DNA from: Branchiostoma floridae
Lineage: Eukaryota; Chordata; Leptocardii; Amphioxiformes; Branchiostomatidae
Direction: 5' to 3'
Assembly (NCBI RefSeq): GCF_000003815.2
Contig: NC_049983.1
Coordinates: forward strand, 20,304,553-20,368,552
Length of the DNA stretch: 64,000 nt
In this document: positions 111-58,906 of the stretch, one piece after another
Numbering within the stretch: the first letter of the stretch is position 1
How the letters are laid out: each line of letters starts with the position of its first letter
The notes under the pieces: model-generated
Database searches by the model: none
Told to the model about the DNA's origin: nothing
What the model saw: the letters and a program-made list of their open reading frames with translations, nothing else
Translations under genes and position numbers: made by a program

Positions 111-638
111 ATGTCCTCTGGCGATGACGCAAACATGACGTTTGCTATCATTGATGACGTGGCCATGACCAAGGGTCCTTACGAAAACATGACCTACTCG
201 GAGAGTACCGGGCAAGGTCAGACTGAGATCGAAGTTGTTCTGCTGTTCTTTATCTTGATGTTTGTGATCGTGATGGCCAGTGTGGGAGTCAGCAGTGCCT
301 GTAACAAACTCGCACGTCACTTGGATGACAGGAAAAGGCGGGCTAGGATCCTGCCTCAAGACACAGAAGACTCTTACTTCGACTCTGCGGAAGGCGCAGA
401 GGACAGGAGACACCTGGAGGAGGAAGACACGGGGTCAGATATGGACATGTACAAGAATGATAACGTCTATATCGTGACGAGGTCGTCTCCGACTGATGGG
501 AAGAGACAGACAGTGATAGACGTGGTGCCTTTGTCCTCTCCAGGGTCATCTTGTGGAAACTCTGTGTACGGCAACGCCAAGGTGTTCTCACGGACTTCCC
601 TCAATCCAGATATTTTACTTCATTCTAGTTCCTGTTAA
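111..638 (+). CDS. Small single-pass membrane protein, family member A (unknown function)
   Basis: I do not recognise this gene. The frame codes for 175 residues. A pyrimidine-rich tract ending in AG at 43-44 is a good splice acceptor, so the coding exon starts at 45 and the ATG at 111 is the first in it. The N-terminus has no signal peptide but has two N-glycosylation sequons (N8, N26). One hydrophobic helix spans about residues 41-63. It is followed by the family motif SVGVSSACNKLA (57-68), a basic stop-transfer stretch (DDRKRRAR), an acidic patch and a Ser/Thr-rich tail ending in SSSC. The predicted topology is N-outside, C-cytoplasmic. The closest relative in the window is gene B at 14736-15500, which shares the CNKLA motif and an MSSxxxAN[MV]T N-terminus. 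The upstream exon lies outside the window. The reading frame is confident; the function is unknown. Confidence 0.75.
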   Translation: MSSGDDANMTFAIIDDVAMTKGPYENMTYSESTGQGQTEIEVVLLFFILMFVIVMASVGVSSACNKLARHLDDRKRRARILPQDTEDSYFDSAEGAEDRRHLEEEDTGSDMDMYKNDNVYIVTRSSPTDGKRQTVIDVVPLSSPGSSCGNSVYGNAKVFSRTSLNPDILLHSSSC

Positions 639-1251
639 GACAATTAAGTTTATTTCATATATGTCGACGCAATAATCTATGGAACAGTGCGTTTAATTTT
701 TCTACCTGACAACCGTGCAGATATGGCTGATGGTTTCGTTTGAACCATTTAAGAACATATGCACATCTGGTGCGTGCTATGTCGCAGCATGTCCAGGAAC
801 AAACTTTCAGATTATTGATTGAAGCCCTGGAGGAGCCAAGATAGCAGAGCAACATCAGAGAAAAAAATGTATCCTTCCGGCGTTGGAAGTCTGTTTTATT
901 ACACAAGACCATTTTGTTCAGCAATCTTCTGACTGTGAATTCCATCACAGACGGCAAGGGGTTTCAAAGTACGTCATAGATCTACCGACACCGTGGGCTC
1001 AGAAAAAAACAGGCGGACAGAGAATGGTGATGAATAACCACTTCAGCAGACTTACCGTTAAGACCAGTGCCAGCCTCAACCGCATTCACATGCGATAACA
1101 TCAGAAATATACGAGAAACAAAGGCTATCTATGCACTTTAAATGCTGTAATACTTGCCAATAGAAGATATCGCATGGTAGATTGAAAATGGCCAGTGTAG
1201 CTACGTCTTTATATAATAGTTTCACGAATTATCAAACAAGTAACAACCGAA

Positions 1252-1257
1252 AATAAA
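1252..1257 (+). terminator. Candidate polyadenylation signal of gene A
   Basis: AATAAA about 610 bases after the stop codon of gene A. It is the first canonical signal I see downstream, so 639-1257 is probably 3' untranslated region. No other coding signal is visible in that stretch. Confidence 0.4.
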
Positions 1258-4200
1258 CTGGAACCGACCCTACAGAATCGTAGACAATTTTCTAAAACAA
1301 AAACAAATTTGAAAACTATCTAAAACAATCGGGTTGTTTTGTGTAGCTCTCTTGTGTGACACTCCTTTTCAACACTTGTGCAGAGATGGAGACTCCCATA
1401 TATCACGTTCAAGAAAGCCAAATACATTCTTGCACGTTCTTGCGTATGTTTGCGATTTCCCTGAATACGAGTATGTGCATGACTTCAGAGTTACCATGTG
1501 TCTGAAGACTTATATTGTGCCTAGCATTTTATTGCGAATATCGATGTGAGATAAACGTTTTCTTCTTATTCCTGTGTGTTTTTTCATATCTATCAAAAAC
1601 AGCGTTCTAGATACTGTAGGTGAATTTTGGGGCGTTTTTCTTTGGCGTTCAAAACGTTTTAAAATTTCTTGATAGGAAGAAATGACGCTATATACATCGG
1701 CTCTTCATTTATCTAGTCTGTGGTATGCGTGCAAGAAAAAAAGAACTTACAGAGCTGTTTGAGGGTTAAATGGTTTCGAAAAAAGAATCACATAGCCGCC
1801 AGCGTATGGATTCGGATGATTTCTTATCAAAATTGAAACCATTTTAGCCTTTTCAATATGTCAGAGCTGATTGAAATTGCTTAAAGGCAGATTTCCAGGA
1901 GAGTGTATTGCATTAGTGTACGGAGTAGACTGTTTCAAAGACGCCGCATTCACCAATACATTGCAGTAATGCTATCACGGCTGCCTCAGGCCGAAAACGT
2001 ACACTGCGCACTACAGAGCTACGGGGTATTACTATAAGTACCATATTTCATCTTCTAGCTTGCTTTAAGTCAGTTTTCTTATCATACAGCATAGACGATT
2101 GATCTATCCATCAATTTTCCCTGTTTCTCTTGATGTATGAACTGAACTATGAAGCGTCTTTAGTCTTAACCTGGCAGCGCTTTAGACTGATTTTCACTGA
2201 AAGGCAAATCTAACAGAACTTTGGAGCGTGTTTTCAAAATCGACGCGTAGTTTTTGTGAAAGTCCTTTCATACCTATTGACCTGATCAGTTTCAAGTTTC
2301 TGTATGCGTCCATGGCTGAGCTTCTAGACTGGTGGCCATGCCAGAAGCCAAAGAAACCCGATCACCGTGACATCCCCATCGTTTAATGATACATATGGCG
2401 GAGAGCAGAGGGGCATTGTGGACACTAATTTCTGCGCTCACAGCGCTCTTAATTAGTCATGGACCCAAATATTGCGCTGGGTACACTAAACGTTCCGTGT
2501 TGGATAGTTCACATTGATTGGTATGCCGAAGGCGGAGGGATTTTCTAGTACGTTGCTCATACAAATTTTGAATTCTTACATTTCATTTATCTTTTTCATT
2601 GAATAGATATCACATAGACCAGTGCTGCACTCAAGTTTCAATTTATATCAACGTTAACGGCGCCACTTAACATGTAAAATTTGACATTACATTAGATAAA
2701 CGTTTACATAAAACTCCGTTAACAAGAATTAAGAATACTAGTAGATATATCATTTAAGAATAAATGTGTGCGCTGAATGACCGCTCCCCACATATAAATA
2801 TATTAGCAATAGAAGGAATAGAAAAATAGACTCAATAAATTACATATGGATTAATAAAACTTGTATAAATGCAACACCTATGTATAATGATTATTCGTCT
2901 CACAGATCTAAGTGTGTTCCAAAAATATGGATTCCGTTAAGGGCATGAAATAAACATTTTATGTCAGATCATATTATTCAGCTATATGAAGCATTCAGCA
3001 TTTTTAATGCCACTTGTGACAATTATTACTAAGAATTGAGTAGATTTCGACAATCGAATTGGAATCTTACAATGCTACCAGTACCACGACTGTTCTTGTG
3101 CAAATACAATAGGACGGCCACACGATTCATGTTTCCGTTGTGAAATCCAAATATCGTCAATTATGTTCCATCACAGTTCTCGTTCTCTTCGATATGGCAC
3201 TTCGAACACGATATCAGCTGTCGCTTTTGCATGACAATTACAGCATGATCTCAAATCGCACACTTCCAATCACAATCGCTAGTCGGCGCATATAGTTGGA
3301 GCGACCATCAACTCATCATGAACTAAGCTTGCGACTACGTTAATGTACGCTTTGTGCCCACTTTTCCGTCCAAAGAGAAAACGACAAGAAAACAATAAAA
3401 TGATCTACAGAATTCAAATACAATTCAATCTCTACAGATCTACAGAATTCTTTCTTCATTGGTTTGGCTGTGCAATACGAACAGCTAGCTATAGGGTTGC
3501 CCAACTTTCAGAATGAAACAGTCACGAAACATTTACGTTCTTCTTCTTCCGTCACTATCGTCAGGCTTTATTGTTCTCAAGGTCTCATATTTATGATTGA
3601 AAGCATATATGATCTTGTTTCCTTCCCAAATGTATTCTATGAAACAATACTTATGGCATTTTCAACTGCACTTAGCCACTATCAGCCGGATGCCTTCCGG
3701 CGCCAACAATGCTTAACCACAGAAACTTATATCTGAAATACTACACGACTACAAGTGCACTGGTGAGATATGAAATTGAATTTCTGATCGATCTGATCAT
3801 AATGTTAAGTTTGTTTTTTGGCTCAACATCAATCATGTTTAGACCACACTCTTTCTGCGTTCCAACTCTGAATAATCCATGTGCAGCAAAGTTGCTGTTT
3901 CTATCAGTTACACTTTTTTTCAACCTTTGCAAAGGTGACAGAATATATATCGATGGCACTCAAAGGTTTCTATCGATTTTAAACGACTACACAACTCAGG
4001 CGTTATTCTCCGGACACGGTCGATTGTACTGAAGCCCGGTTGCCTACAGACGTCGATAACTCATCATACATATGTAGGTGACAGCTGTCGCGTCGGTCAA
4101 CCCACATCTAGAAAATAGTTGGCATTTCTTTACATGGCCGATGTCAAGAATGTTGTGTTTGTATTCAGATAGCTATGCCAATCATAGTAGGCGGCTCAAA

Positions 4201-4278
4201 AAGACGTGTTTTGTTTGTAAACTTTTCGGGTATTTTGACATTTCCTTCCCGAATTCAGTATTTCCGTAACCTTTTTTA
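1258..4278. other. Intergenic, nothing recognised
   Basis: AT-rich sequence with only short, non-homologous open frames. No splice-flanked exon, RNA gene or obvious terminal repeats are visible. Around 3405-3450 the string CTACAGAATTC or a close variant recurs, a trivial short repeat. Confidence 0.5.
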
Positions 4279-6993
4279 TATTTCAGCCATACCATATATG
4301 GTATGGTGAAATATATTGTATTCGTAATGTTTCTTTCTTTCTTTCTTTCTCCTGTCAAATCTTCAAAGCGATTCATCTCCGTCGTTCCGTGACCGAATGA
4401 CCTGAAATTTGGCACAAGGGTAGAGTGGGTCAATACCGAGGTGCTTTTTTCTCATTTTTTTCATATCTGCCTCTAAAATGATTTTATTGAAGTTTAAAGG
4501 TCATGTTTTGACCAAAACGGTATATTGTGGCCCCCTGTTCCCTTGAATTACAATGGAATGACCTTAAATTTGGTGTAGATAGGCATTAGATAGTTGGTAA
4601 AATGATCCAAGTAAAATTTTGGGCATAAACTACTTTAAAATGCTTAATTTCAGCGCTTTTCTGAGTTGAAATTGGTTTTCTTTCGGCTTCCTGCCGTGAA
4701 CTCCCGTGACCCCAGAGCCCACAGGTGCCAGGTGCCAGCGGTCTGGGGAGAGCGAGAGATAATTACTTTATGGACGCCAGCCAATCAGCGACGAGAAAGG
4801 CGAATGCTAGTTAATATTCATAAGCGGGGCCTTGCAATCCCGTATATACACAAACAGATGCATATTACAGCCTTACAGTGGCCATATGGCACCCTGTGCC
4901 GGGTTTGAAATTGTAGTTTGCGAGGATTTGGAGTTCAGACAGGGTCATTTGAGCGGTAGCGGACGGTACGCGTGCATTGAACGTTAGTGTCGATGAATTT
5001 ACCAACATTCCGCATGGCACTATCAATCATTTTCGGCAGATTTGGACAAGGAAAATTGGACGGCTTGCGTTTAGTTTTGATAGGTAAGTTTGACAGTGGC
5101 GAGAATGCATGTATTTTTTCCCGAACAAATGTACGGTAGGTACTTCTAGTGTTGTTGTTGTTCTTTTTTGACGTAAACTTTGTACATTCAAATTGTAAGT
5201 AACTTTAAACTGCCAGAGTTTGAGCCCAATAAAACACTCTCAGTACCAGAGTATCACCACTGACCTCCGAAAAGAAACCCCCGAACAAAGTAGAAACACC
5301 TATCCTCCAGGTCTCGCACGCTACGAGCAGGAAATTATAACACTCAGACAAGATTACGTCCGATGGCTGATTGCATACAAAGTAAAACAATTTAACAGTG
5401 GTATGCAGGGGCATATACTTAACAACGAATTCGAAGGAAAATGAAATATATAGATAATATCTATTATCATAATACCGGTACGTTTACGACGATTTCTCTA
5501 GCCATACTGATTTGACAAATTGTCAACGCATCATTTTCTCCAGTTACATGTTGCTGTTATAGGTTACCCTTGCCACTTCTTCTGTGTAACTTTTCTGCCA
5601 CTCTTGTCTTGCTAAAAGCGTAATATTGTAATTGTGACACGCCGCGGAATTACACGGCGAACGGGCGCGTGGTTGGGAGGGGGTACAAAATACCGGTAGG
5701 AAGAAACACGGCACAATTAACTGCCGCTATGTACATTTATACATCCTCTGATGTTCCTTCCTTTTCTGTCAGTAAATGCATAAAACATAAACCTGCTTGA
5801 GCATACAAAATGTCATGAGAAAACGGACGTATACTGTCAAGAATTTTCATTTAACTCCTGTCCGTCACAACCGCTATGACGTAACACTTCACTGCTAGCG
5901 TAGATATAAAAATGGCGGGAAAATGGCTGCGTACGTTCAATTTTGCCCATTCAGTCGTAGATCCGGGCTATTATGCAACGGTTCTTCACACTTTTACATG
6001 AGTTGTAGGTCACCAACAGAAATTCAAGATTGTTGTTGAATCATGTTCGTCTTGTGCCGTGAGCATGTGTAATTATGATCTATAAATTTGGCAATGAATG
6101 TGACAGTGTGTTCGTCCCACGACGAGCTGCCTTCCCCGAAAAAGGTACTGAAAACTTTTGGACTTGTTGTCTTCGAATACATTGTTATCGATGCTTTGTA
6201 AATGATGTATTGGACACCTAGATGTCTGAAGTGTGCACAGCTCAGAAATAACTATTGTTGCATGTGTCGATCTCTTTAAGTTCTAGTATTTTTAATCTAC
6301 CGGTATAAGTCTTACTACCGGTATTATGCCAATGCATGTTAAAGCAAAATCAAATTAACTTGTTGGTCCTGGGATCTTTCAGAAAAGAAATGAAGCGACA
6401 GAGTGGTAGAATTCTTGTAAAATTTCGAGACGTCTCCGTTTATGTAATGGCTCATACAAAACAAGAAGAAGATTGAAGTTTTTAGCTTGAAAAAAAAAAA
6501 AACAACACTCCTACTACACAGTACCTGCACCTGACAATTATTAAAACGTATGCCCTACTTGCTTAAAAAAAAGTTCACTGCAATAATAAATGTACCCACA
6601 TCACAAGGAGATTATGACGGTACTTAGACCTAGTTATCGAAGTGGAAATTGTTGAATGGCGTCATGTAATTTCATGACGAAAATCTTCTGAATGGAAGAT
6701 GCGTTTTTTTTCACTCTCGGAAAAATAGGAGCTGCCGCAATTCTAAAAACCAATCAGTTATGCATAGGCGCTCCTGTGGAAGATTATATTCTTCTATATG
6801 GGCCCGGGGCATATTGGGCAAGCTCTGTTTTGACATGGAATCAATTCACAATATTAGTTCTCTTTTGGGGATAACTTACATTAAAATATTGCATTTTTGC
6901 GCAGGGGTGACTTGGAACAGTCCAATGTTGCGTGGGAATGGGTATGGCTGAAATATGCTGTATTTGCACCCAAGCAAATGTCGGCCTTTCTAG
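4279..6993 (+). mobile_element. Non-autonomous DNA transposon-like repeat, long copy
   Basis: This segment recurs in reverse complement at 55540-57074. Similarity begins at TATTTCAGCCATACC (4279) inside a near-perfect palindrome and stops at GGCCTTTCTAG (6993). The first 15 bases recur in inverted form at 6941-6955 (GGTATGGCTGAAATA), about 38 bases before the end of shared sequence. This copy carries about 1.2 kb (roughly 5164-6357) that the other lacks. It also contains a TTTC microsatellite near 4330. No intact transposase is visible. The flanks read TTA on the left and TGA on the right; the other copy has TAA on both sides, which would fit a three-base target duplication. Assignment to PIF/Harbinger is only a guess from that. 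Confidence 0.6.
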
Positions 6994-7875
6994 TGATTGT
7001 TACATGGTCGTTAGTACCATGAAGGTTTGCTCAGTTAAAATTGCAATATTCTAGACATTTCACATCAAAAGTTACCGTTGAAATCGTTTGAAACTTGCTG
7101 TTGAAATTCCGAATTACTATTTTAGTGTTTTAATAAGACGTGTGGAAAACACATGTTTCCTGAACGTTGGGACATGAGATATGTTGAGATTGTAAGCTTT
7201 GCGTTTTTTCTTAGATTTTTATCAAATCGTCATAAGATCTATTTACTAATCGCTTTCAGAGCGCACAGCGTACAAGAAGGAAAAATCTTGATAAAATTCT
7301 TCCGGTCCTTTATCAGACTAGCCTTGCTGGCGTCCGATTCACTCTTTAACGAGGGTCCCATTTCCAAACCGGCGCTCGGGCAAACAGTTTGCGGGAACGA
7401 AAAGTATTTAATAAAAGACAGACATCAAGACAAGAAAACGTAACAAAAAGTAGTCATGGGAGTGATAATTTGTGTGTACTTCTTAATATACGCTTTTATT
7501 TTTCGTTCACGTAAAATCGCACCACCGGGCCCTGCTTTGGAAAGATGACTCCAGTATAACTAAATGTACAGCGTTGAGAAACGGCTACTGCATGTATGTA
7601 TGTAGGAGTTTTACTGCGACAGCTGCGCTGGCCGGTTTCCATGGCGCTGGTAGGATTGATGCGCGCCGGACGTGCGGCCAGCCGTATACATTACTGGTGG
7701 GTTCGGGATCCGTTCGGTTCCTGATCGTCACACAGCTGATCGTCCCACCGTGAGCGCTCGTCACATGCATCTGTCATCGACCGACTCCGAGAAGCACCCC
7801 TCCCATCCCATCCCAGCATCAGCCGCCTCAAAATAGCGCGCGTTACGCCATCGATGCCGGCCGTCAGGGCCTCTC
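6994..7875. other. Intergenic, upstream of the alpha-tubulin promoter
   Basis: No coding signal on either strand. From about 7600 the sequence becomes GC- and CpG-richer, as expected near a promoter. GGTTTCCATGGCG at 7634-7646 resembles the first half of an RFX X-box, but its second half is poor, so I do not claim a site. Confidence 0.4.
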
Positions 7876-7884
7876 TATAAATAG
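7876..7884 (+). promoter_or_regulatory. TATA box of the alpha-tubulin gene
   Basis: TATAAATAG in a GC-rich setting, 137 bases before the tubulin ATG. A start about 30 bases downstream (near 7906) would give a 5' leader of roughly 107 bases in the ATG-only first exon. Confidence 0.6.
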
Positions 7885-8012
7885 CAGCCGGCTGTTTGCG
7901 ACATATCCATTTGCAGTGCTTCAAGAGATCCGTCGGACATCTCCAGAAGCCACGTCCGTACCAGTTTGTCTTCTGTCTACCCCAATCCAAGTGCCAAGGC
8001 CGACTACGTAAA

Positions 8013-13974
<5,962 letters not shown>

Positions 13975-14313
13975 ATCATTAAGTCAACGCCAACTCAAAA
14001 CTACACAAAAGAAGAAATATCCTATTAATGTACTGTATGATGACAATTCTACATCGGATTTAAGATCTGCACTTCCTTCTCAAACCTTAAAGAAAGAGCC
14101 AAAAATTCCATCGTTTCAATGATCAACCGATTGTCTCCGTAAGGTAACTCCTGTTCATGTCTGTAGAAAGCAGAATATGAAATCAACAAGTGTTGTTTTT
14201 GTACTACGAAATGACTGCATAAGGTCAGAAGAAAAGGGTACGAAGGCAATCCTTTGACGTTGCCAGAGTGCTCTTTCGTCGAAGTTTAAGTAAGTTATAA
14301 CTATGTCAAACAA

Positions 14314-14319
14314 AATAAA
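14314..14319 (+). terminator. Candidate polyadenylation signal of alpha-tubulin
   Basis: AATAAA 340 bases after the tubulin stop codon; a second AATAAA lies at 14494-14499. Both precede the 3' end of the convergent gene B. Confidence 0.5.
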
Positions 14320-14552: not shown

Positions 14553-14558
14553 TTTAAT
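14553..14558 (-). terminator. Candidate polyadenylation signal of gene B
   Basis: ATTAAA variant on the minus strand, about 180 bases after the gene B stop. It would leave a short gap between the converging tubulin and gene B transcripts. Confidence 0.3.
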
Positions 14559-14735: not shown

Positions 14736-15500
14736 TCATATTAGTTCCGTCCGGTCACATTCGAATCTCTCTCTGTATACTTGTGCCGGGTATGTACAAG
14801 ATAGCCCCTTTTCGTTTGACACTGTCGTGTTAGGCAATATGAGTTTCTTGTATCTATTTTCTCCCATATTTGGGATAGTCTCTGATATTGTAGGAACATT
14901 TTCTGCTAGACTATCTGTTTGTATAGGAGGGAGCCTAATACGTCCTGGGTGTGGAACATCTTCTGAAGGAGGCTTTAAGTGTTCTAAACCGTCTTTGTTC
15001 GCCTCGGTTTTGCTTGCTTCCGGAGTTTCTTCTTGACTGTGTGACGTCTCAGCTGGCTGTATCTGTATCTTCGTTTTGTTGACTGCCTTTCTCCAGTACG
15101 ATGCTGCCCGAGTCTTTGGTTTGTTGGGTTTGAACAGGGGCGCCACCTTGCGGAGTACTTCTCGCTCGTGCATACAGGTTGCAAGTTTGTTACAACAGTT
15201 GCTGATCGCAACGGTTAGTAGGATAATGGCAATCATAACGATAACGAAAGCTAGCACCACAGGGAATTCCTGTATGGGCTCAGGCGCAGCCGGTCCCTGC
15301 GTTGTGTTCGCATTGGCTTGAAACGTTGAAACGGTCGACATGATGGCGTCATCAGTTTGTAACGTGACGTTGGCGGCAGGTGTTGATGACATCACGAAAG
15401 TGCCGTTGAATGAACGAAGTAGCAACGTAGTAACGCTGTTGGGTTGTGGGGTCGTTTGGGAGCTTCCTTGGTCTTCAAAAGGTATCACAGCAAGGAGCAT
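14736..15500 (-). CDS. Small single-pass membrane protein, family member B (unknown function)
   Basis: I do not recognise this gene. The open exon codes for 254 residues. On the minus strand the acceptor TATGTTTTAG ends exactly at the ATG at 15500. A second in-frame ATG at 15392 begins MSSTPAANVTL, which matches the start of gene A (MSSGDDANMTF), so translation may start there and give 218 residues. The Thr/Ser-rich N-terminus has sequons at N32, N44 and N65. One helix spans about residues 80-103, carrying the family motif TVAISNCCNKLA (96-107). The tail is Lys/Glu/Pro-rich and ends ECDRTELI. The predicted topology is N-outside, C-inside. A candidate donor CAAG|GTAAG at 16733 (minus) could mark an upstream untranslated exon. 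The gene converges on tubulin. Family membership is confident; the role is unknown. Confidence 0.75.
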   Translation of the reverse strand: MLLAVIPFEDQGSSQTTPQPNSVTTLLLRSFNGTFVMSSTPAANVTLQTDDAIMSTVSTFQANANTTQGPAAPEPIQEFPVVLAFVIVMIAIILLTVAISNCCNKLATCMHEREVLRKVAPLFKPNKPKTRAASYWRKAVNKTKIQIQPAETSHSQEETPEASKTEANKDGLEHLKPPSEDVPHPGRIRLPPIQTDSLAENVPTISETIPNMGENRYKKLILPNTTVSNEKGLSCTYPAQVYRERFECDRTELI

Positions 15501-15502
15501 CT

Positions 15503-19583: not shown

Positions 19584-20213
19584 TTATGGCGGATGGACAA
19601 TGACAACCGGGATGTCCACCCACTGCGTTCTGTCTGATTTAGTTCTGCAGCTTTTGCTCCTTTTTTTCGTCCAGGGCAGACGGGGGCTGCTGATTGTGTC
19701 CATCCTCAACGATGATCTACTAGAATTCCGGAATTCGTCGGGTCTAGTCCGGACGTCCGCTATTCCGTTCCGGACGTCGGTAATATCCGGCATGGAGACG
19801 GTGTGGGGAGGACGCAGCCCGGCATCAGACGAATGTTTCCGTTCTCTTGTGCTGGCGTCGTCTACCGTCGAGGCCATGACGGTGTTTCCGTTTCCGTTGA
19901 GGAGTCCGTTTACGGCAACCAGCCGACTTCTCGCGTCATTTCGTCTTCTCGATCGTCTCGCGAGAGAACTGAGACTGATTCTGCTGGCGCGGATCCGCCG
20001 GCCCCCTGGCGGCTGCAGTCTGTCCTCCACCACGGGAACGATCAAATTCGTGTTGTTCACCAGGTACTGAAACGCCTTGCTTATCAAGATACTCAGCAAG
20101 AAGCAGACGAACAACACCGCGGAGACGATCACGGCGATCGGCGGCAGGCTCCATCCGCTGCCCGCGTAAACCTCCTCCGGCGTCCCGGTGCAGTTCACCG
20201 TCTCGTTCATCAT
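19584..20213 (-). CDS. Small single-pass membrane protein, family member C (unknown function)
   Basis: I do not recognise this gene. The predicted protein is 209 residues. The minus-strand acceptor TTCCTTCTGCAG ends at 20216 and the exon opens with GT then two consecutive ATGs; the first (20213) is used here. The short N-terminus has sequons N3 and N7 and no signal peptide. The helix spans about residues 24-44, followed by the motif SILISKAFQYLV (41-52). The tail is very Arg-rich (residues 72-97), contains RERKHSSD (123-130) and ends VDIPVVIVHPP. Gene D shares both the QYLVN juxtamembrane segment and the R-[RK]-HSSD site, so C and D form a subgroup. The coding part is GC-rich compared with its flanks. 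Long frames on the opposite strand are shadows. Confident frame, unknown role. Confidence 0.75.
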   Translation of the reverse strand: MMNETVNCTGTPEEVYAGSGWSLPPIAVIVSAVLFVCFLLSILISKAFQYLVNNTNLIVPVVEDRLQPPGGRRIRASRISLSSLARRSRRRNDARSRLVAVNGLLNGNGNTVMASTVDDASTRERKHSSDAGLRPPHTVSMPDITDVRNGIADVRTRPDEFRNSSRSSLRMDTISSPRLPWTKKRSKSCRTKSDRTQWVDIPVVIVHPP

Positions 20214-20572
20214 ACCTGCAGAAGGAAAGCACAAGCTGACGTTACGGGCTCCGTATCTGTAAATGCTCAAAATTATTCTTTAGGTGACTGAAATTGAAAC
20301 TCCGTTGGTGTCATCCCGCGTAAGGAAAACCCTTTCATATGCATTTACCACAAGTTCCTGGACTGATTTTGTCAACGTGTAAATCACTTCTTTCAAAGGC
20401 CTTTCATGCATTAAGCATATCTATGACGCACTTTCCTCGAAATGGTTGGGAGACCCTGTCTGCAAAATAGTGGCGTAATGCAAAGGAGTCGAGGGAATCT
20501 TAAGTACATAGAGGCAATCGCTACAGATATTTTTCAACGCAATGTATCTCCTTATTTTCTATGACATTAAAC

Positions 20573-39005: not shown

Positions 39006-39030
39006 AATCTACTATTCTTGTTAGACGAAC

Positions 39031-39075: not shown

Positions 39076-40511
39076 TGAACTGAATGGCTTGGGGAATGGA
39101 TCAATGTGCAACTGGACGTTTTCATTGACTGTCATCATGTTTTATGGTACATTTTGTAGTACTTTTTATGGTACATTTTGTAGTACATCTTGGGATGCGC
39201 TATTAAGAAGTGCTTTCTGTGTTTTCTTTGCAAAATAAGATGGATAAAAATCATATAGTTGCAATCAAAAGGACAAAATAGTGTTTAATCTGCATGGAAT
39301 TAAGTTTGATAAATTTCCCATTATCTGTGCACACTGTATATATATTGTAGTCAGCAGTGTGCAATTACCTCTGTGCAGTAACTTGCAATGAAGGTAACTT
39401 TTATCATAAGATTTGTCATCTTTTCTTTGCCTAATAAATAGATTTATCCATGAAAGAGAAATAGAAGTTACTATACAGTACGGGCTTTGAGAAATTTTAT
39501 CATTAACTAAAAGGACTGTTGCAGATATATATCATCTCATTCAGTTCCTCCATGCTTTTATTTCAGAAACAAGATGTCTTAGATAAATGACTGGGTCAAT
39601 ATCATTTCAAAATTCTAATAAACCTTCAAAACAGTATGTTTAGGTTCAACCAGATAATTGAACATTTGTCAACACGACAATTGTACAACATACTTTCAAC
39701 ATACCCGCAGCTCCTCCTGTGTCAAAGTGTAACTCTACTCTACTCTGAAAATGCTCTGAACACAAGGGCACTCTTTCCAGATGAATGAGCATTTTGCTCC
39801 ATGAAATCTATAGCTAACTTGTGAAACATGTTACACAAAAATATTGTGTGTAAGAATATAAGCTCATGTGTGAAAGAATATAAGCTCCTGACTGCACTTT
39901 TTATGTACACGTTTTTGATTACCATCAAGAACTAAAAATTAAGTCAACATCTTACATATCTGGGTGACATTTTGTAAACAGCCAAGATGATTAAACAGCA
40001 CTAGACGGAAAATAGTATTATCTTACAGACCAGTAATACAGACTTTCAGGAGATGTAACACCTGCTTTGAGAATAAAAGAACTAATGCAATATAATACCA
40101 TACTCAATGATGAGGGATCTAAAGGAAGGCACTTTTTTAAACAACATCAAAACAAGGACACTCTTTCCAGATGAATGAACAATTAGGTCCATGAAATCTA
40201 ACTTGTAAAACATGTTACACAAGAAATATTGTGTGTTTAATAATACTAATCCCGAACTCCTGCTTTCCGAACACAATCCCTAGCCTCCTGTAGGGTGGCC
40301 GTGCCTTTGTGAGTAGGGCTGGCAGATTGCAGCCAAAGCTTCAGGAAGCACTACCATCACACCATACTCCAGCCGCTGTAGCCAAAAGAAGGTTGTTAGA
40401 ATGTGTGTTCTCTCTGTCAACATTATTCTCACGAGAACACAAGGGTGCTTTGATAGAGTAATTATTTACAGCAACATGGTAAATACCAGTAATATGTATT
40501 GAATGCATTAC

Positions 40512-40759
40512 CTTTCGCTTCACTACTGTGATGCCCGGGTGTGAGGCGACATCATGACAAACACGTATGATGTCTTTGAAGTCCTCCTGAATAAGAACAA
40601 GTTTACCATTCTTGTGGAGCTTCCCCTCCACATTGGAGTAGCTCCTGGCCTTGCGCTGGAAGTTCAGGGTCTGGCGTTTGCCCCCAGTCGGTGCCACCGG
40701 GCCTTTCTTTATCCCTGTCCAGGTAGTATTGCAGGACAACAGCCTCTGCTTTACTGATC
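40512..40759 (-). pseudogene. Integrase-type H2C2 zinc-binding region of a retrotransposon-derived gene, frameshifted
   Basis: The minus-strand frame reads GGKRQTLNFQRKARSYS, then VEGKLHKNGKLVLIQEDF, then IIRVCHDVASHPGITVVKRK. This is the pattern of the region leading into the H2C2 zinc finger of Ty3/gypsy-like integrases (a basic linker, an 'x-G-x-L-x-x-x-G' hairpin, then H-x(4)-H-P-G). The exon ends at a donor GCGAAAG|GTAATG (40512/40511). Upstream coding similarity continues in a different frame (EAVVLQYYLDRDK), implying a one-base frameshift in the purine run near 40710. No finger Cys pair or DDE core is found nearby, so this is a fragment of an element or of a host gene derived from one. 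Confidence 0.4.
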
Positions 40760-41043
40760 GGCACTTGAAAACAAAAACAAAACTTGTAGGCGGATGTAGA
40801 GTAGATTGCCTCCGCCCCCTCCCCCTATAATATTTACTAAAAGTAAAAGTGAAAACATGAATATCGATCGTCTAAGAGAAACACTCAAATTTCCAAGCTC
40901 CATTCTGACTTCTGCTATAGTCACACAAATGGTTCACAGGAAATATACAAAAGTAAACAACAACGACAACAAAAAAGGATCTTACTTGCGGTGGTGGAAT
41001 TCGCACAAAATCAGCCAGCATTCAGCGCAAGAGAAGTTTTGTC

Positions 41044-48659: not shown

Positions 48660-49033
48660 CGGAATTTTATGGAATTTCTTCGTTCCGTTATTCAGCTATC
48701 AACTTTGAATGATTTGTACAAAAATGCCCTGTTAGTTGTAGCTAATGGGGAGCCATGGTGGTTCGGGTGGCAGAGGAAAAGTGGCACCCCATGCCAGATA
48801 TTGACGTAAAGTCATTAAGTCGAGTTCCAGAACAAGCTTCAAGGGGGGCCCAAACCTACACCACTTCTTTCTGACATCAAAATGTACCTGCCACTAATAA
48901 ATGAACCCAGTATTAGATCTAGGACAAAACTTTATAAGTTCCAAGTTTCAGTACCAAGGCCAGCCACAAGGATGCCTTATTCTTACCTTCAAAAGACCTA
49001 CTCACGTATCAAACATCATTACAATCCATCTGA

Positions 49034-49101
<68 letters not shown>

Positions 49102-49165
49102 AAACACAAAGATACACAACAACGACAACAATACTCCAATTTTTCATGGAGATATTGGATCAAAT
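48660..49165 (+). mobile_element. Second, shorter copy of the module-rich repeat family
   Basis: The string from about 48660 (GAATTT...CGTTCCGTTATTCAG) to ACAAAAATGCCCTG, then GGGGGGCCCAAAC, then a long CA tract and TTTTTCATGGAGATAT aligns by order and sequence with 21268-21650 of the element at 20573-21660. It is more diverged and keeps only the right-hand part. Non-coding; the His-Thr repeat frames through the CA tract are artefacts. Confidence 0.5.
49035..49094 (+). repeat. CA microsatellite, about 29 units
   Basis: Nearly uninterrupted CA dinucleotides; the longest microsatellite in the window. Confidence 0.97.
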
Positions 49166-52100
49166 ACTAGTAGATACTTTTATAAGTAACAATTTAATTG
49201 TGAACCACAGCACGCGAGGTTTTCATAAACTTTAGTTTATTTTCTCATTAATCAGAATACAGAGAGATTTGCCTACCATGTGATAAATAAGTGTTCGAAT
49301 AAAAAGGTGAAAAGGATTTGGTAAGGATTGTGAAGAAAAATTGCTTATGTCTGTTTCTGGCAGCTTTATCTATACGAATGTTGCAATTATCGACTGCCAA
49401 CAGTCAAACGTACAACTTCTGTAGTTTGATGGTTTCTTTGGATGCCTAACAGGGTTATCATTCCATCAATTGCAATACACAGTTGATAACTATACTCCTT
49501 TATTTACCAGTATTTATGAAACTCCATTCGGCACCTGATCAAAATCTATGATTACAGCTTTGCGAGAGGCTGGTACATAATTAATCTACGAGGCAGTGGG
49601 TGTGAAAACGAGCAATTGAATATGAAGTAACGAGTTGTTGACTAAGCCTATTGGATTATGTGTAGTCTCATTTGTACAATTAGAAATTACATTAATCTTT
49701 ATCTACTTACTATGTATGAACATACTACAAATCGCACACCGGCTCTGCAACTTTAAGAATACAAACACATGGAATAAAATTGTTTCCTTTCTCATTGGTA
49801 AATCAATGGATAACTGTATAACACACAATCGAATGACTGCTCGCCCTTAGGCGAAGCTAGATTGAACATTGGATATGTGTATAAATGCAAATATAGGAAG
49901 AGCCATAAATCATAATTCAAATATCGAAATATCTATTAATCATAGACTCCTACTCAATTAAAGGGCTGTCTTTCCTGAGAATGGTTATTGAACTTTTTCC
50001 ATAAAATAGATGTCCTTTGCAGAAGGGGTCAGACAGGGCGTTAATGGTGTCGAGGCTGAGGTATGGACAGAATGACACAAGTTACATACTATTCGTTTGC
50101 AACGACCAGAATATAAAATTGCCTGCGTGGGAACAAATGATCAGTCAGCTGAGATAGTTATATGAAAATATGACAGTGTAGTATCTCTCACATATCCAGT
50201 ATTTGGGCACAGTGCTATTCATTTCCTTTGCCAGTTACACGAAAAAAGGGTTTTGATACGTAATCCGCTGTAGCACATATTGCACCAGCAGCGTCATTTC
50301 GTGGTTGAGCGTACTTCATGGGATTCATCTTAATGTCGCTTTGCCAATTTTCTCCTTGCAAACAGCAATAAAAATATATATTCTTGACGTAGATGTGGTA
50401 GTTAGTCTCTTGTTAGCCACATTTCCCTCAGAGCGGCTTTGAGTGGGATAAGGTATTTGAAGGAAGCATAAATCATACATTTGATGTGAACATGATAACT
50501 CTTCATCATTCCATATATTGGAACATATTATGAACTTTTTTTTTTAGTTTTCATGTGTTTGAGCCTGTTTCCGTGTCACCTTATTATATGCTTTTATGAT
50601 TTCCCCTATCGCTGTGGGTGTGTCAATCCCATATACCCTTTCCCTTGTTGGTCACATTTCCGTGTCCCTCGATATCAATCATCCAGGCCAATTTGAGTTT
50701 CTGTTCAAACAAAGGCAGAATACTATTAGTGAGTCTGTATTTTCGTTAAGAGTTGTATGGGCGTAAAGGAAAATGTTCTAAGATGTCGAAATGCTAGAAT
50801 AATTCAACGTCGACTGTATCGAACATGACATACAATATACATACTTGAACAAGCTGACTGAGTTTGTGTCAGTTGATATCAAACGTTTTCAGGGTTGCCA
50901 GGTCTTAGACGGATGGACCTCTTCACCTCCATATATTCTCGCTCTTCTATGTGCGTCACAAAAAATTTATCATCCAGCTAACAGTGTGCGAGCCAGCTAT
51001 CTTTAGCTTGAATTCCATACCTTATCAATTTGTGCTCCTCCAATCTGAAACAATCACACGATCCCCATAAGTAAGACTATCATGATGTGATTTTTTGGAG
51101 AAAGTCCAAGAATCGATCCTTGCAGCGCGCAGTATCATCATCAAACCCAGTCCTCAGCCCGGCCTCTCGCAGGAAACCGTCCTTAATGGCGGCTATTTTG
51201 GAACGATAATTTGCAGCTTTACTGATAACGTTCCCCTGAAGGATGTGCGAAGCTTTATTCTTTGTGAGAAAGATTTGCACGGTGGGCTGTAAAAGTTTGC
51301 GACAATGACGATGGGATAGAGCACAGGCGCAGATTCAACATGTGCGCTGACTGCAAGATTTATAAGATATCGACCTGACCGACTGGACGACTCCAGAAAT
51401 GGGCTATGAATTTTAATCGTGGGGCAATGAGGTTGAATATGGATGTAAGAAAAGGGCGAGTTCATGGTGAGATTGGGGGAAGAAGGGGCCCAGAGGCGCG
51501 AAGGGTGAGTGGGATGTGTCGTGATTGGATAAACAATAAATGTATCACACTACACAGTGTTAATGATCACCTATTTCCCTTCCTGTTGGCACAAAGATGC
51601 TTGATGTTGATAATTATGAGGTACACTCACGCAAATAGGTTTATTTGTTTTTGTCACCAAAAGCATTACATATAGCCACTGGGATTTGTCGATATACAAT
51701 TCCACTCGAGCTAAATATACTTTTCTTATCAACAGAGTACAACGATCGCAATCACGGTTTGCTTATTCTCAATCATTACTAACGCTTAACGCGTCCACAA
51801 AATGGATTAACGCCGCTAAAACCTTAAGAACAATTGATTTATGCGTAACCCACCTTACACGACGTGTGGGGCAAAGGGAGTTGTTACATGTTGGAATACT
51901 GTACCAGATGATTTGACGTTTTCTCTACGAAGATCATAAGGTCTTTCATTACCAATGCCGGCATCATCGCGGCGTGAGCACGTCCTGGCTATGGTTTAGC
52001 TCCGCCCGGCTTTTGACCAACGGAGGGGAACGTAGGCTAGCGATGGGACTCACTGTTACAGCACCTTAATGGCAAATGAGGAAGCTACATCACCTTTCGG

Positions 52101-53457
52101 CCACTCTAGTGCATGTATAGACAAATGAAGCACGCTAGATTCTCAGCATGTGCGAAGGCCAAGGCGGGAAGGGTAGTCAATTGGGCTTTTCCGTTGACGC
52201 ACGTACAGTTTTAGTACTGGCGCTGATGGGATCAAAGTCAGACAAACAACATCGACAGTGACGTCCATGCATCTGAAAACGCATGAGTAAAGATCGTAGC
52301 TTTAGAACTTCAGTAGACAGGAAACAACGCTGCAATGTTTCATTGATATCACCTGCTCAAGAAATGTCTGTTGGTCTAATCATTCAACAAAGTCCTTTAA
52401 GCATGTTAAGAAAGAGAAAGTTGATATGGAATATGCTTCTGAAGATCGACAATTGCTTACATAGACAGTTCACAGCCCGCCTCACGATGGTGTCTGGCAA
52501 CAATCTGGAATCAATATAAACAGTCTTCATTGAATAACGGATATCGATTCCATTTAGCGACTGGTACACACAATACTGTAATCGGCGCCCTCGTGACGTT
52601 GACACTAAGTTTGGTTTTGCCTAGTAATAGTGATATTGGCAAGGGAAACCATTAAAAAGCATGACCCAATATGCCAATATAAGAGCGGTAGCAAGGTTAT
52701 GTACATTGGCTGCTTCGATGACTCGACAAATCTACCAAAATGCATATTCAAATACTATGCAAAATGTCAGAGCAATTGGTCCGGGAAATGCGGCTTACGG
52801 TTCCACTCCGTCAATCAGGATGAGACATGTGATACCATTTCTCTGAGGAACCCTGCGTATGACCCGGGCTACGATCCAATAAACACATTATACAGGGACC
52901 TTACCCAGCGGCTTGACCTGTAGCAGAGAAAATCGGTCTTAGAGATTATCATATCTAGCTTAATGTCATTTGAGGTCTGGCTTTAAGCTTCCGTAGTTGA
53001 GGATGACAAGAGGATGAAATAATTGTTTTGCATGTATGACGTGCCCTGGCGGTATTGATCAGATTTTCCCGCGGCGTGCGGAGCTTGTTTGTGGGGAATT
53101 ATCTCGTCTGTCTCTATCAGGTGTAGGATCGACCGATGAGCTGACTGCGGTGATGTACGAGCCTTTCCCGCGACCCTCCCAACCGCCACGCCTCCCAATC
53201 GAAACTCCAGATTTCCTCCATCTGCGAAATTGATCACCATCGCGGCCGTGAGAATCTGCACATGCACGTCTTCGCCGCGGTAACTTTCCCACGCTGCCTC
53301 TCCATTGTCATGGCAAATGCAGCCACTCTCCGGGCGGGGATGCAATGACGGAGATCGGAGTGCCTTGTGCGAAGCTATTGATTTTGAGAATCAGGCTACT
53401 GCCGTTAACATCTGAACGGTGCCCGCCGTATTGGTAAGGGGAACAAATTTACGGCTC
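49166..53457. other. Gene-poor region, no supported gene
   Basis: AT-rich with chance open frames. The sequence becomes noticeably more CpG-rich from about 53050, as near a promoter. A cysteine-bearing frame at 52630-52923 is discussed under findings. Confidence 0.4.
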
Positions 53458-53662
53458 TATATTTAGGTGGATGATCGGATGGTGGTGAGCGGTGTGTGCC
53501 CGGGGTACCGCGAGGGTCCCTGCCTCCGAGTCGACAAGAAGCAGACTCGAAACAGCAATGTCTTCTCAAATGTCTTAAGGAGATCTCTTTTTCTCTCTGC
53601 GGAAGCCACAGCTTCAAGACAAACCATTGGTATTTTCTTCAATCCCGAGCAGTTCCATTAAG
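53458..53662 (+). promoter_or_regulatory. Candidate promoter and 5' untranslated exon of gene D
   Basis: TATATTTA at 53458-53465 lies in a CpG-rich stretch (about 53050-53620). About 200 bases on, TTAAG|GTAAGA (boundary 53662/53663) is a strong donor. An exon from about 53490 to 53662 spliced to the acceptor at 58252-58253 would supply the leader of gene D across a 4.6-kb intron. This is inference; no transcript evidence is available. Confidence 0.25.
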
Positions 53663-55539
53663 GTAAGAAGCAAATCGTGTTTCATCAGTTTTCTCACCAT
53701 GTAGTCTAATCAGTCACCAGTATAGCCTTTTTTCAACTTATTCAATTGGCCAGTGGTACACGTAGGATTTTTCAATGAGCAACATTTGAAAAGTGTTGGC
53801 TTTATGACAGGGGTTGAGCGACGTGAAGGTCATCCAATAGAACATAGAACGCGACCTCGCGGTCTCGGGAGTAAGACAAATTCTAGCTGTTCTCTGTCAG
53901 CACCTATAAATATGGTAACCTCTGTCGGGGGAACAGAATGTCGACCTTTTATTGTAATCCTCTCGGTGATACTCTGGCATTTAGCCTTTTTGAGTGTACG
54001 GCGGTTTTGGGCACTAGATGGGATTTTGTCTTTAGCTACGAAGTGATTCTTCCTTGTAGGACTGTAAATGTAACATTAATCATTGTTTGCCATGTGGCCA
54101 TCATCTGTGGTATTTACACAATATTCCTCTCGCATCATTTATCCATACGCATGTATCAACTATAGCTAGTAATTGTTTACGACCGCTTCTGTTATTTATC
54201 AGCTCATCAATAGTCTTCTTAAAGCTAAAAATGCTGAAGACAAAACGAATCTTTAAAACAGTGCAGCAATGCATCTTCACGTTTTCTAAGCTGACGTCAA
54301 ACTTCTTTTGGCAATGTCTTGTAATAAATCCTCAATCTCGTCAGCGCAATAAACCATATCAAACAATTGAAATCCCAATACTTATGCAATTTCACTTTAG
54401 GAGGGGCTCCAACTCTAAGTTGAGTGTATGGGTAAGATAATTGCATTAAGCCAAGATAATGCATTTGCTCCAACAGTCCAGTGATGTTCAGAAGGCTTCA
54501 TCCTGTCTACGCTATCCATTAGATCTGCCACATTTATTTTAATCACTTTCATTTTAGATTAGTTATCGGAACCATTACCGTAATGAAGTTTGCTGGGAAA
54601 CTGTTCACAGTAAATACCATCTGGTCTGTAATTTATAAAGATTTATTTCTTTCCCTATTTGGATGCGTTGTGCACATTATCATTCATACAGTGGCAACGT
54701 CGCCAATATGAAATATGAAAGGACGTCGTCAATATGAAATTTGTAACCTCTAAGTATCAAGTTGCTCCCAAGTGTTACTGTCGATGGAGCTAAATTAACA
54801 TCTATTCTACTTTCTATTCTGTCCACGTTGCTTCAAGGTTCTGATAAAGGCACGAGGCCATCTCCCCAAATACAACTGCACGCGTAAGTGAAAAATGTCG
54901 TTGCAATTAAGACTCAATTTTCTACAATTCAGATAGATCGTCCTAAACCAAATGAAGAGATCTGGGATCCGAGTGGAGTTTTGGTGCTGACAATGATTTT
55001 TTGTGGTGAATGTTTTTCGTGGCAGCTTGAATTATCATACTATCTTGTTGTACTGCAGTGAGATAATTGTGCACAGAGATGGGTATTGGGCTGTATTGAA
55101 CTCTCAAGGGATTCCAGGTAACGAAAGGATCCTTAAGCAAATCTGACTATATATGCATAATAGCTTTATTGGCGCCGCAACAAAATGTACAATGACTTTC
55201 GTAATGTGAACAATAAACTAAAATAATTGAAATACAAGATCAATCTTACCAGCTGTGCAATTCAAGCTGATGTTACTACTTCCATCACATCATATTGCAA
55301 TTAGGTAGCTAGCTAGCATACATGGCTTATCATGCTTTTTTGCATATTTCTAATAATTACATAAACACCAGATGTATTTATGATATCTCATATTGAGTAA
55401 ATATATTTGTGGTTATCAGAACCTCTGTTACATTGATCAAACAGCACGTCAACGGATGCTTATTTCTGTTTTATTGATATACTTCACAAAACTACCGTCG
55501 GAAAACCGTTGTCTACTGCAAACACAGTAACAGTTGTAA
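53663..55539. other. Intergenic or gene D intron, nothing recognised
   Basis: No coding signal beyond chance open frames. If the candidate exon at 53490-53662 is real, this is intronic. Confidence 0.4.
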
Positions 55540-57074
55540 CTAGAAAGGCCGACATTTGCTTGGGTGCAAATACAGCATATTTCAGCCATACCCATTCCCA
55601 CGCAACATTGGACTATTCCAAGTCACCCCTGCGCAAAAATGCAATATTTTAACTGTAAGTTATCCCCAAAAGAGAACTAATATGGTGAATTGATTCCAGG
55701 TCAAAACAGAGCTTGCCCAATATGCCCCGGGCCCATATGGAAGAATATAATCTTCCACAGGAGCGCCTATGCATAACTGATTGGTTTTTAGAATTGTGGC
55801 AACTCTTATTTTTCCGAGGGTGAAAAAAAAACGCATCTTCCATTCAGAAAATTTTCATCATAAAATTACATTACGCCATTCACAATTTCCACTTGGAAAA
55901 CTAGGTCTAAGTACCGTCATAATCTCCTTGTGATGTGGGTACATTTATTATTGCAGTGAACTTTTTTAAAAGTAGGGCATACGTTTTAATAATTGTCAAG
56001 CAGGTGCAGGTACTGTGCAGTAGGAGTGTTTTAAACTAAAAACTTCAATCTTCTTCTTGTTTTGTATGAGCGGAGACGTCTCCAATTCTTACAAAAATTT
56101 TACCACCCTGTCGCTTCATTTCTTTTCTGAAAAATCCCAGGACCAACAAGACCAACAACAACGCTAGAAGTACCTACATTTGTTCGGGAAAAAATACAGG
56201 CATTCTCGCCACTGTCAAACTTACGTATCAAAACTAAACGCAAACTGTCCAATTGTCCCGCGTTTTCTGCCAAGTACCATTTTCTCGATTGTCTCAACTA
56301 ACCCTCAAAGTCAAATCTGCCGAAAATGATTGATAGTGCCATGCGGAATGTTGGTAAATTCATCGACACAGACTTGCATTCTAACGTTCAATGCACGCGT
56401 ACCGTCCGTTACCGCTCAAATGACCCTGTCTTAACTCCAAATCCTCGCAAACTACAATTTAAACCCGGCACAGGGTAACATATGGCCACTGTAAGGCTGT
56501 AATATGCATCTGTTTGTGTATATATACGGGATAGCAAGGCCCCGCTTATGAATATTAACTAGCATTCGGCTTCCTCGTCGCTGATTGGCTGGCGTCCATA
56601 AAGCAATTAACTCTCTCCCCAGACCGCTGGCACCTGGCACGTGTGGGCTCTGGGGTCACGGGAGTTCTCGGGAGAAGGCCGAAAGAAAACCAATTTCCCT
56701 TCAGAAAAGTGCAGAAATTAATAATTTGAAATTAGTTTATGCCAAAAATTTTACTTGGATAATTTTACCAACTATCTAATGCCTATCTACACCAAATTTA
56801 AGGTAATTCCATTGTAATTCAAGGGTACAGGGGGCCAAAATATACCGTTTTGGTCAAAACATGACCTTTAAACTTCAATAAAATCATTTTAGAGGCAGAT
56901 ATGAAAAAAATGAGAAAATAGCACCTTGGTATTTACCCACTCTACCCTTGTGCAAAATTTCAGGTCATTCGGTCCAGGAACGACCGAGATGAAGGGATTT
57001 GAAGATTTGACAGGAGAAAAAAACATTACGAATACAATATATTTCACCATACCATATATGGTATGGCTGAAATA
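55540..57074 (-). mobile_element. Non-autonomous DNA transposon-like repeat, short inverted copy
   Basis: Reverse complement of 4279-6993 with several substitutions and small indels, but lacking the 1.2-kb middle. The join sits where the long copy has GTTGTTGTTG on one side and CTTGTTGGTCCTGGG on the other, so a deletion at TTGTTG microhomology is likely. TAA flanks both ends, a possible three-base target duplication. The palindrome containing TATTTCAGCCATACC is kept at 57030-57074. No coding capacity. Confidence 0.65.
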
Positions 57075-58253
57075 TAATAATTGAGTACTTTAGAGACACA
57101 CGTACTCATTTTTTCATATCAAATGTAACAACATAGTGGAGATCATATATTCCATGCAATGTTCCGGGTGGTTTCCAATGACAGATACACAAATTCGTGC
57201 TGAATCTTTGCTGTTCTGAAGTATAGGGCTGTTGTATCCTATTCATCTACGTTAGTTTAGTAAAGTATGGGTTGGCACACGTACAGAACGATGCTTTACT
57301 TTACTTCGCTTGTCATAATTGGATTACGAAATCGTTCAGTAGCCATCGGCAGATCCGGGAGATCATTTTACACTAAATCAGCAGTCAATTACTCAGTCAA
57401 TACTCGGGTGGATACGGTCGGCATACAACTAACTACAGTCTACGAGCTGAAATGCGCTTTAGAACCACCCACCTCGCTACAAAATACACACCGGCAGCTG
57501 TAATCGATAGAAAGGTCCCTGTATAACAAAGGATTGTACTGCTAAATTGCAGTATTGGGTGACGTCAGATTTAAATCGATACCGTTCCTATATGAAGGCG
57601 GTTAGATTGATATCTAAAGCGTAATAGTTGGGACGGCAATTGCCTGATAAGGTAACAACTTCGGAGTGATTGAAGGGGTAAGCGGGCAGGACGTGCACCT
57701 GAATACATACCAAGATAAATGCAAGTTGGGAAAGAATCTTCAGCACAGCTGCGGTTTTACATTGGATCCTAATAGATTGTTTCCAAGACTTGTTATGCAT
57801 TTCAAAGGCAGATGTGCCTGAATGCGCCTTTAAGTCAATGTCCTTACAGCACAGGAGAACATACGACACAGTTCGTTTGTCAAGTAAATCTCCGAATAAT
57901 TTGAAGAGGATGCCTGTTAATTTTGCAATTACATACTTGCATAAGCATTTACTAGTTCAATGCTTTGGTAAAACCCAAAATATTTAATTGTTCTCATATG
58001 GTAAATGCAATTCATATATTGCATATCAAATGTTTCCACTTGCTTCGTACGTACGAATAATTATAACCAGTACACAATTTCATACCACCAATATTTCATA
58101 TTTCATTCAAGATCTCCGTCCATAACTCCATGTACTAAAGACATAAAAAGATACAAGGGGAGCATGTAACATGTATTTGGGAATGTATGGTCTTGTACTT
58201 TAATTCTTGTATCATTGTATTTTTTTGACATGGCGTCCTTTAATTTCCCACAG
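57075..58253. other. Spacer or intron upstream of gene D coding exon
   Basis: AT-rich, no coding signal. It ends in the pyrimidine-rich acceptor TTTAATTTCCCACAG at 58253. Confidence 0.45.
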
Positions 58254-58372
58254 AATTGCAGAGTCACTTCATATAAGGGTATCAACTAGCAACGGCCAAA
58301 CAAGAGGACTGCTTTCTATGCCCGCCGCCATTTTGACCGTGATTGACATGGCATGGCACCGCCCACATGTGA

Positions 58373-58906
58373 ATGAGCGTCACCAGCGTGAACAGCAGTA
58401 CCGAGGCACCGCCTACGTCATCCGAGCAGCACAGAACATCCGTGCCACCTGCCATCCTCATCCTGTGTCTTGTCGTGCTGGGGATCTGCATCCTGAGCAT
58501 AGGGATCAGCAGAGCCGTGCAGTACCTGGTAAACCACTATGACGTCTATCCTCCTCCTGACATGGAAGACGACGAACAGCGCGTGCGCGATGACCCCGCC
58601 GAAAGGAACGCTGGGGTCAAGCCATGGAGGGGGATGCTCAACTCCTTCTTGGCCACGAACAACAGAGTTGGCATTCAAATCACACCCGAGACGCCTGTAC
58701 GCCGACATTCGTCTGATTCGAGGCGCAATGCCTATAACACTGAAGACAATCATCACTGTACTGATGATACAAATGATGACATTTCTCACTCATCCGGAGG
58801 TGCAGTTCCAAACGGAACCACCGAAGTCCAGACTATGCAACGATTCTATATGCAAGATGGCAGGGATCGAAAAGAGGCCTGGGGCCCTCGAGAAGTGGTG
58901 GTTTGA
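58373..58906 (+). CDS. Small single-pass membrane protein, family member D (unknown function)
   Basis: I do not recognise this gene. It codes for 177 residues. A good acceptor (TTTCCCACAG) ends at 58253, and the ATG at 58373 lies 119 bases into the exon; earlier ATGs in the exon are out of frame. The N-terminus is Ser/Thr-rich with a sequon at N7 and no signal peptide. The helix spans about residues 26-46, then the motif SIGISRAVQYLV (42-53), a Pro/acidic stretch (YPPPDMEDDEQ), a kinase-type site RRHSSD (110-115), an Asp/His-rich segment and the end GPREVVV. Gene C shares the QYLVN segment and the HSSD site. The predicted topology is N-outside, C-inside. The coding part is GC-richer than its surroundings. 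Confidence 0.75.
   Translation: MSVTSVNSSTEAPPTSSEQHRTSVPPAILILCLVVLGICILSIGISRAVQYLVNHYDVYPPPDMEDDEQRVRDDPAERNAGVKPWRGMLNSFLATNNRVGIQITPETPVRRHSSDSRRNAYNTEDNHHCTDDTNDDISHSSGGAVPNGTTEVQTMQRFYMQDGRDRKEAWGPREVVV

Follow-up and report, generated by a model that had tools for sequence, protein, structure and literature searches.

A tandem cluster of at least seven predicted single-helix membrane protein genes in Branchiostoma floridae

Introduction

Many small, fast-evolving animal membrane proteins escape domain libraries. Three described systems come closest to the one considered here: KCNE proteins, single-helix beta-subunits of KCNQ-type potassium channels; EMRE, the regulator of the mitochondrial calcium uniporter; and the TipE-like genes, which a part of PMC3240667 presents as a cluster of auxiliary subunit genes of insect sodium channels. 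Here we describe four predicted genes, A to D, in a stretch of 64,000 nucleotides from Branchiostoma floridae (C5:20304553-20368552; 41.9% GC; hereafter the window), together with three more, E to G, beyond its right end. Judged from their sequences, the four are very probably real and part of an unrecognised tandem family, one that is larger and better supported than the initial annotation of this DNA had said.

Results

Predicted genes A to D and the wider cluster

The four frames of the initial annotation (Table 1) all translate without an internal stop, one open frame each. Of ATG-started open reading frames (ORFs) with 150 amino acids (aa) or more, the window contains eight, whereas 40 order-1 Markov sequences have 0.3 on average; the longest single ORFs arising there by chance measured 208 and 220 aa. 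The eight include A-D as well as two frames that overlie C on the opposite strand. The short N-terminus of D would be complete, because a TGA abuts its ATG; two further in-frame stops lie just upstream. In B, the Met aligned with the start of A is the inner Met of MSSTPAANVT, 36 codons into the listed frame, and a TAG stands immediately 5' of the listed ATG.

We searched the window's own genome (513 Mb, 431 contigs) for further members. A search with D found E, and F and G came from a hidden Markov model (HMM) scan of the 264 kb in which the window lies; F matches a profile of C, D and E with an E-value of 1.2e-13. The sequence of G is incomplete, and G is counted and tested only from its helix on. 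The three sit about 8-34 kb past the window's right end, and together A to G make up a single cluster about 97 kb long. In genome searches at E-values up to 1, F as the query returned F, E, C, D and G and no others; C returned C, E, F and G, not D; A returned only A and B; and B returned B and A plus two weak places on C13 and C17 (E-values 0.43 and 0.86). These match counts are lower bounds, since only the best candidates are scored. A degenerate pattern for QY[LI]VN[HN]T[ND] occurs four times in the 513 Mb (reversed control, once), in C, G, F and E, all within the cluster; D deviates from it, with NHYD at that place. The initial annotation had counted four dispersed genes, an undercount, as at least seven lie in one cluster. 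Profile matches beyond chance, whose absence it had named among the possible refutations, were obtained within this genome.

Table 1. Predicted genes of the cluster and candidate 3' splice sites of A to D, in window coordinates.
Feature	Position	Strand	Details
Predicted gene A	111..638	+	CNKLA subgroup, 175 aa; ectodomain with 2 sequons, one helix, charged tail, C-terminus ...PDILLHSSSC
Predicted gene B	14736..15500	-	CNKLA subgroup, 254 aa as listed
Predicted gene C	19584..20213	-	QYLVN subgroup, 209 aa, C-terminal end QWVDIPVVIVHPP
Predicted gene D	58373..58906	+	QYLVN subgroup, 177 aa; TGA immediately 5' of ATG fixes start
Predicted gene G	~71.7-72.5 kb (outside window)	+	found by HMM scan of 264-kb region
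Predicted gene F	~85.3-86.3 kb (outside window)	+	found by HMM scan of 264-kb region
Predicted gene E	~96.8-97.5 kb (outside window)	+	found by genome search with D
Candidate 3' splice site (AG), A	43..44	+	exon start 66 nt before ATG; top 0.33%
Candidate 3' splice site (AG), B	15501..15502	-	abuts listed ATG (0 nt); top 4.2%
Candidate 3' splice site (AG), C	20216..20217	-	exon start 2 nt before ATG; top 0.12%
Candidate 3' splice site (AG), D	58252..58253	+	exon start 119 nt before ATG; top 1.5%; found only with the 200-nt limit

Homology within and between the subgroups

To compare the members pairwise, we took 44-residue segments around the helix and scored each pair against 2000 block shuffles. 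A/B scored 84 and C/D scored 74, values that none of the 2000 shuffles reached in either case; at the level of sequence, each of the two is a homologous pair. The division into a CNKLA subgroup (A and B) and a QYLVN subgroup (C and D), which the initial annotation had drawn, is supported by these tests, with the link between the subgroups weaker than that inside them. Within-group pairs in the 40-codon helix region of A-F have pN of 0.36-0.44 and pS of 0.64-0.85, with synonymous differences near or at saturation, and identical residues are encoded by differing codons at 8 of 16 positions in A/B and 10 of 17 in C/D. In these respects A-F look like old duplicates that have been maintained as protein, with the helix conserved.

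Some similarity extends to the end of the tail. C, F and G, which end in QWVDIPVVIVHPP, GWDLPILMVNAP and GWDLPMILLNPP, have in common a W-x-[DL]-[IL]-P motif at the C-terminus; E ends in CPEVVVHSP and A in NPDILLHSS. When the C-terminal 20-mers were compared in all 21 pairs, six pairs were reached by at most 50 of 1000 shuffles: F/G, C/F and C/G by none, C/E by 1, A/E by 2 and B/C by 8. The longer form of the motif, W-x-[DL]-[IL]-P-hhhh-[HN]-x-P, can be recognised clearly in C, F and G; in E and A the shuffles support it in part, in D it is discernible only by eye, and B has a weak likeness to C (8/1000). C and D also have [RK]HSSD in common, which we take to resemble a basophilic kinase site.

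Whether the two subgroups descend from one ancestor is a separate question. In the cross-pair segment tests, A/D was reached by 0 of 2000 block shuffles, B/D by 5, A/C by 331 and B/C by 660. Column by column, the profile of A and B against that of C and D was reached by 2 of 5000 two-block and 1 of 5000 three-block shuffles. The columns of E and F fit those of A and B at offset 0, a result reached by 0 of 2000 two-block shuffles, 0 of 2000 three-block shuffles and, for columns 18-33 alone, 0 of 20000. As E and F come from outside the window, their match to the A/B register improves the case for a link.

HMM searches across the groups, in contrast, stay at noise, as they would if the subgroups were unrelated and their helix ends had converged on a small/polar packing face. 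An HMM of A and B gives D an E-value of 0.15 and C one of 24, with the best unrelated frame at 0.18; an HMM of C and D gives A 0.47 and B 14, with the best unrelated frame at 0.3; and an HMM of C-G puts A only eleventh, at 0.58. Faces of the S-x-x-x-S type are common in packing helices, which counts for convergence as well. Against it stand the E/F match to the A/B register, the C-terminal similarity of A and E (2/1000) and the finding that, in the searches made, significant matches of both subgroups fall only inside the 97-kb cluster. On balance we regard convergence as unlikely. The sequences point, if weakly compared with the evidence inside each subgroup, to common descent of the two. Because the C-G HMM finds A only at 0.58, the link of A/B to C-G would be an old one, resting on register, cluster position and a possible shared C-terminus. 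The initial annotation had held a chance match in four frames to be very unlikely; this holds for A/B and C/D (each 0/2000) and is only probable for all four together, given the noise-level cross-pair searches.

Helix motif and predicted topology

At the cytoplasmic end of the helix, the motif as first proposed, [ST]-[VI]-x-[VI]-S-x-[AC]-x-[NQ]-[KY]-L-[AV], matches A-D as written. It is too narrow for the cluster, as E (STVVSKSCQYIV), F (SIMVSQTCQYLV) and G (SIGVSKTFQYLV) each depart from it in at least one place; [ST]-x-x-[VI]-S-x-[ACST]-x-[NQ]-[KY]-[LI]-[AV] suits the seven members better. Within columns 14-33 of the helix segment, every one of the seven has polar residues at columns 20, 24, 25, 28 and 32; of these, 20, 24, 28 and 32, at a spacing of four residues, fall on one helix face.

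The short N-termini had been called N-glycosylatable, and the counts bear this out. Ten of the 11 ectodomain Asn residues of A-F lie within N-x-[ST], a total that 0 of 2000 shuffles reach, and only 0.1% of shuffles give at least one sequon in all six ectodomains (B taken from its MSS start; G not countable). An AlphaFold2 model of C, built with the seven sequences, predicts one helix at residues 25-54, with pLDDT averaging 79, 96 and 93 in successive ten-residue blocks from residue 21 to 50; this would place the conserved motif at the cytosolic end of the membrane helix and just past it. Charge bias fits an N-out/C-in orientation for A and B. The tests made here support a family of single-pass proteins with one helix, as the initial annotation had proposed.

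Candidate splice sites and gene structure

We ranked 3' splice sites by a home-made score among the AGs of the 264-kb region, within a limit of 200 nt that was widened from 120 nt after D's site had been missed (Table 1). The best candidates of E and F put the exon start 11 nt and 60 nt before the ATG. Scores are high for A, C and E and fair for D. Among 1500 randomly sampled ATGs, compared with A-D under the 120-nt limit, an equally good site was found for 1.9% (A), 22.7% (B), 0.8% (C) and 92.4% (D, whose own site lies just outside that limit); B's site is weak because 22.7% of sampled ATGs do as well. A layout with an acceptor near the ATG resembles that of the KCNE1 gene, as given in a part of PMC11138074.

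Candidate acceptors upstream, and frames in A, C and E that are open back to theirs, would also be expected if A-G were the last exons of larger receptors, coding only for helix and tail, with the extracellular domains on upstream exons. Several features speak against this: the stop codons before the ATG of D and the TAG before B's listed ATG, the similar lengths of the C and D N-termini before PP (23 and 24 aa), the alignment of A and B at MSS..AN.T..DD, and the excess of sequons over shuffles within the short N-termini themselves. We consider last exons very unlikely.

Comparison with known families

No member reaches any Pfam cut-off, and searches of PDB sequences with D and with an A-D helix profile gave nothing better than an E-value of 0.16, in keeping with the initial annotation, which knew of no named family with this motif. 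The literature matches listed held no description of this protein family, and a search for KCNE with amphioxus gave nothing relevant. Pattern scans of viral contigs with D and A gave 5 and 45 matches, none confirmed as a relative.

In hhalign, C-G against KCNE1-3 gave P 0.00089 and a probability of 23%, and both subgroups take the same register against the KCNE1-3 profile (21 and 27 of 1000 shuffles for C-F, 28 and 11 for A/B). We also compared single helices, with eight control helices. Against A/B, KCNE2 (0.033) and KCNE3 (0.077) beat each of the eight (lowest 0.128), and KCNE1 was the best-scoring single helix against C-F (0.005). However, KCNE1 reached only 0.292 against A/B, and against C-F the controls APP (0.015) and GYPA (0.020) came near KCNE1 and did better than KCNE2 (0.210) and KCNE3 (0.170). 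KCNE1 and KCNE2, tested as single sequences against A-D, did not reach significance (best 103/3000). ISK_Channel (PF02060) was not listed for A-G at E-values up to 10, a search to which the HMMER filters apply, and the D-P-[FY]-x-x-Y-I of KCNE1-3 is not present in the aligned segments of C-G or A/B. Nor does any genome locus pass the ISK_Channel cut-off, the best scoring 17.2 bits against 22.1 and lying outside the cluster; of three weak places, the one inspected, on C4, is a 90-codon frame that by eye does not look like KCNE. That A-G are invertebrate relatives of KCNE by descent is quite unlikely in our estimate. We rejected membership and kept the analogy, as the signal is suggestive yet not separable from that of some unrelated helices.

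The best Pfam lead was EMRE, whose family (DDDD/EMRE, PF10161) matches D at an E-value of 0.029. D matched a solved EMRE homologue at 7 of 3000 shuffles and C at 134 of 3000, and EMRE against C-F gave 0.007. D scores 14.5 bits against a cut-off of 27, though, with the other six members not listed, and the sequon excess points to the secretory pathway. Clear EMRE matches (57.1 and 53.2 bits) lie elsewhere in the genome, on C13, so an EMRE reading of D falls. We rejected it; that the cluster encodes EMRE-like uniporter regulators is extremely improbable.

Surroundings of the cluster

Two matches of the A/B profile in the left flank, at -25401 (E-value 0.015) and -17374 (0.1), were dropped as unproven; one, judged by eye, is missing the motif, and in the other the helix is C-terminal. 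The frame at -17374 to -16880 (window coordinates, minus strand; L014) ends in a helix with VSTACARLFRRLY, which resembles VSSACNKLARHL of A but is C-terminal. Further out, from about -87000 to -50000, frames L017-L021 contain CUB-like and discoidin-like stretches beside Thr/Ser-rich, mucin-like ones (by eye), and are apparently tandem receptor genes. Between A and B lies a multi-exon alpha-tubulin gene (window ~10.05-13.9 kb, plus strand), with two exons matching Pfam Tubulin/Tubulin_C and the rest assigned by eye. An inverted dispersed repeat, probably mobile or segmental, pairs 4273-5133 and 6359-6994 with 55539-57080, about 50 kb away; the pieces are 89-99% complementary, and the first copy is longer by about 1.2 kb, which lie between 5133 and 6359. 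At 38.1-41.6 kb there are short repeats based on AGCGCTTTTAGGATAGA, in both orientations, and a frame at 40344-40871 (minus strand) with a weak Integrase_H2C2 match (E-value 0.0068, below cut-off) is likely a retroelement remnant.

Discussion

Our preferred reading, held tentatively and at a little under even chances, is that A-G are one old, tandemly duplicated family whose products are small, belong to the secretory pathway, cross the membrane once and probably serve as accessory or adaptor subunits. Homology within subgroups, clustering, coding constraint, glycosylation-site excess and one membrane helix are the tested support for this reading. In the mechanism we propose, the N-terminus would lie outside and be glycosylated, and the helix would run on into the cytosol, with a long flexible tail inside. 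The polar stripe [ST]20-S24-[NQ]28-[NRT]32 could pack laterally against a second copy or against another membrane protein as its partner. The tail could dock cytosolic regulators through the W-x-[DL]-[IL]-P-hydrophobic stretch of several members and through basic serine sites, among them the [RK]HSSD of C and D. Packing by the helix and docking by the tail would make these proteins accessory or adaptor subunits that work in a KCNE-like manner.

Besides the noise-level searches across subgroups, several results weigh against this reading. Fifteen of the 21 C-terminal pairs, including every pair with D, are above 50 of 1000 shuffles. The polar stripe was read off the alignment and defined from these same seven sequences. 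The AlphaFold2 model of C has a mean pLDDT of 52.4 and a pTM of 0.23, with 127 of 209 residues below 50. By the positive-inside rule, C is neutral and D opposed (C-side +1/-4); for a single helix with an outside, N-glycosylated N-terminus, the sequons and the helix prediction for C agree and the charge bias of D does not, all at the sequence level. The candidate splice sites of B and F are weak. Finally, it is the architecture that suggests a role as accessory subunits, which is possibly correct, and any function of A-G is inferred from it.

Tandem clustering, a fixed signature in the helix, an enrichment of glycosylation sites and a C-terminal motif conserved in part together make A-G a testable family. 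If A-G are helper subunits of channels or receptors, they would bear on the origin of single-helix regulators such as KCNE, because the ascidian Ciona is reported, in a part of PMC9671499, to lack KCNE genes. A bolder proposal, which we also think improbable, is that the cluster is a non-vertebrate, probably chordate, equivalent of KCNE: at least seven tandem one-helix beta-subunits, whether related to KCNE by descent or independently evolved, that would modulate channels, KCNQ-type or other, through helix packing of the KCNE kind.

Among known systems, the TipE-like cluster is an analogy of gene organisation only. EMRE likewise has one helix with a small-xxx-Ser face, and D has an acidic stretch after its helix; A-G differ in lacking the acidic end tail and in carrying sequons in the N-terminus. 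KCNE-like working is the analogy we favour. As predicted here, A-G would have in common with KCNE a short, external N-terminus bearing N-glycosylation sites, one helix, a cytosolic tail and a coding sequence confined to one exon near a splice site, along with a weak match of the inner helix end in the same register. They differ from KCNE in having longer tails, which extend about 115-250 aa beyond the helix core, in a C-terminal motif of their own and in their arrangement as a cluster of at least seven.
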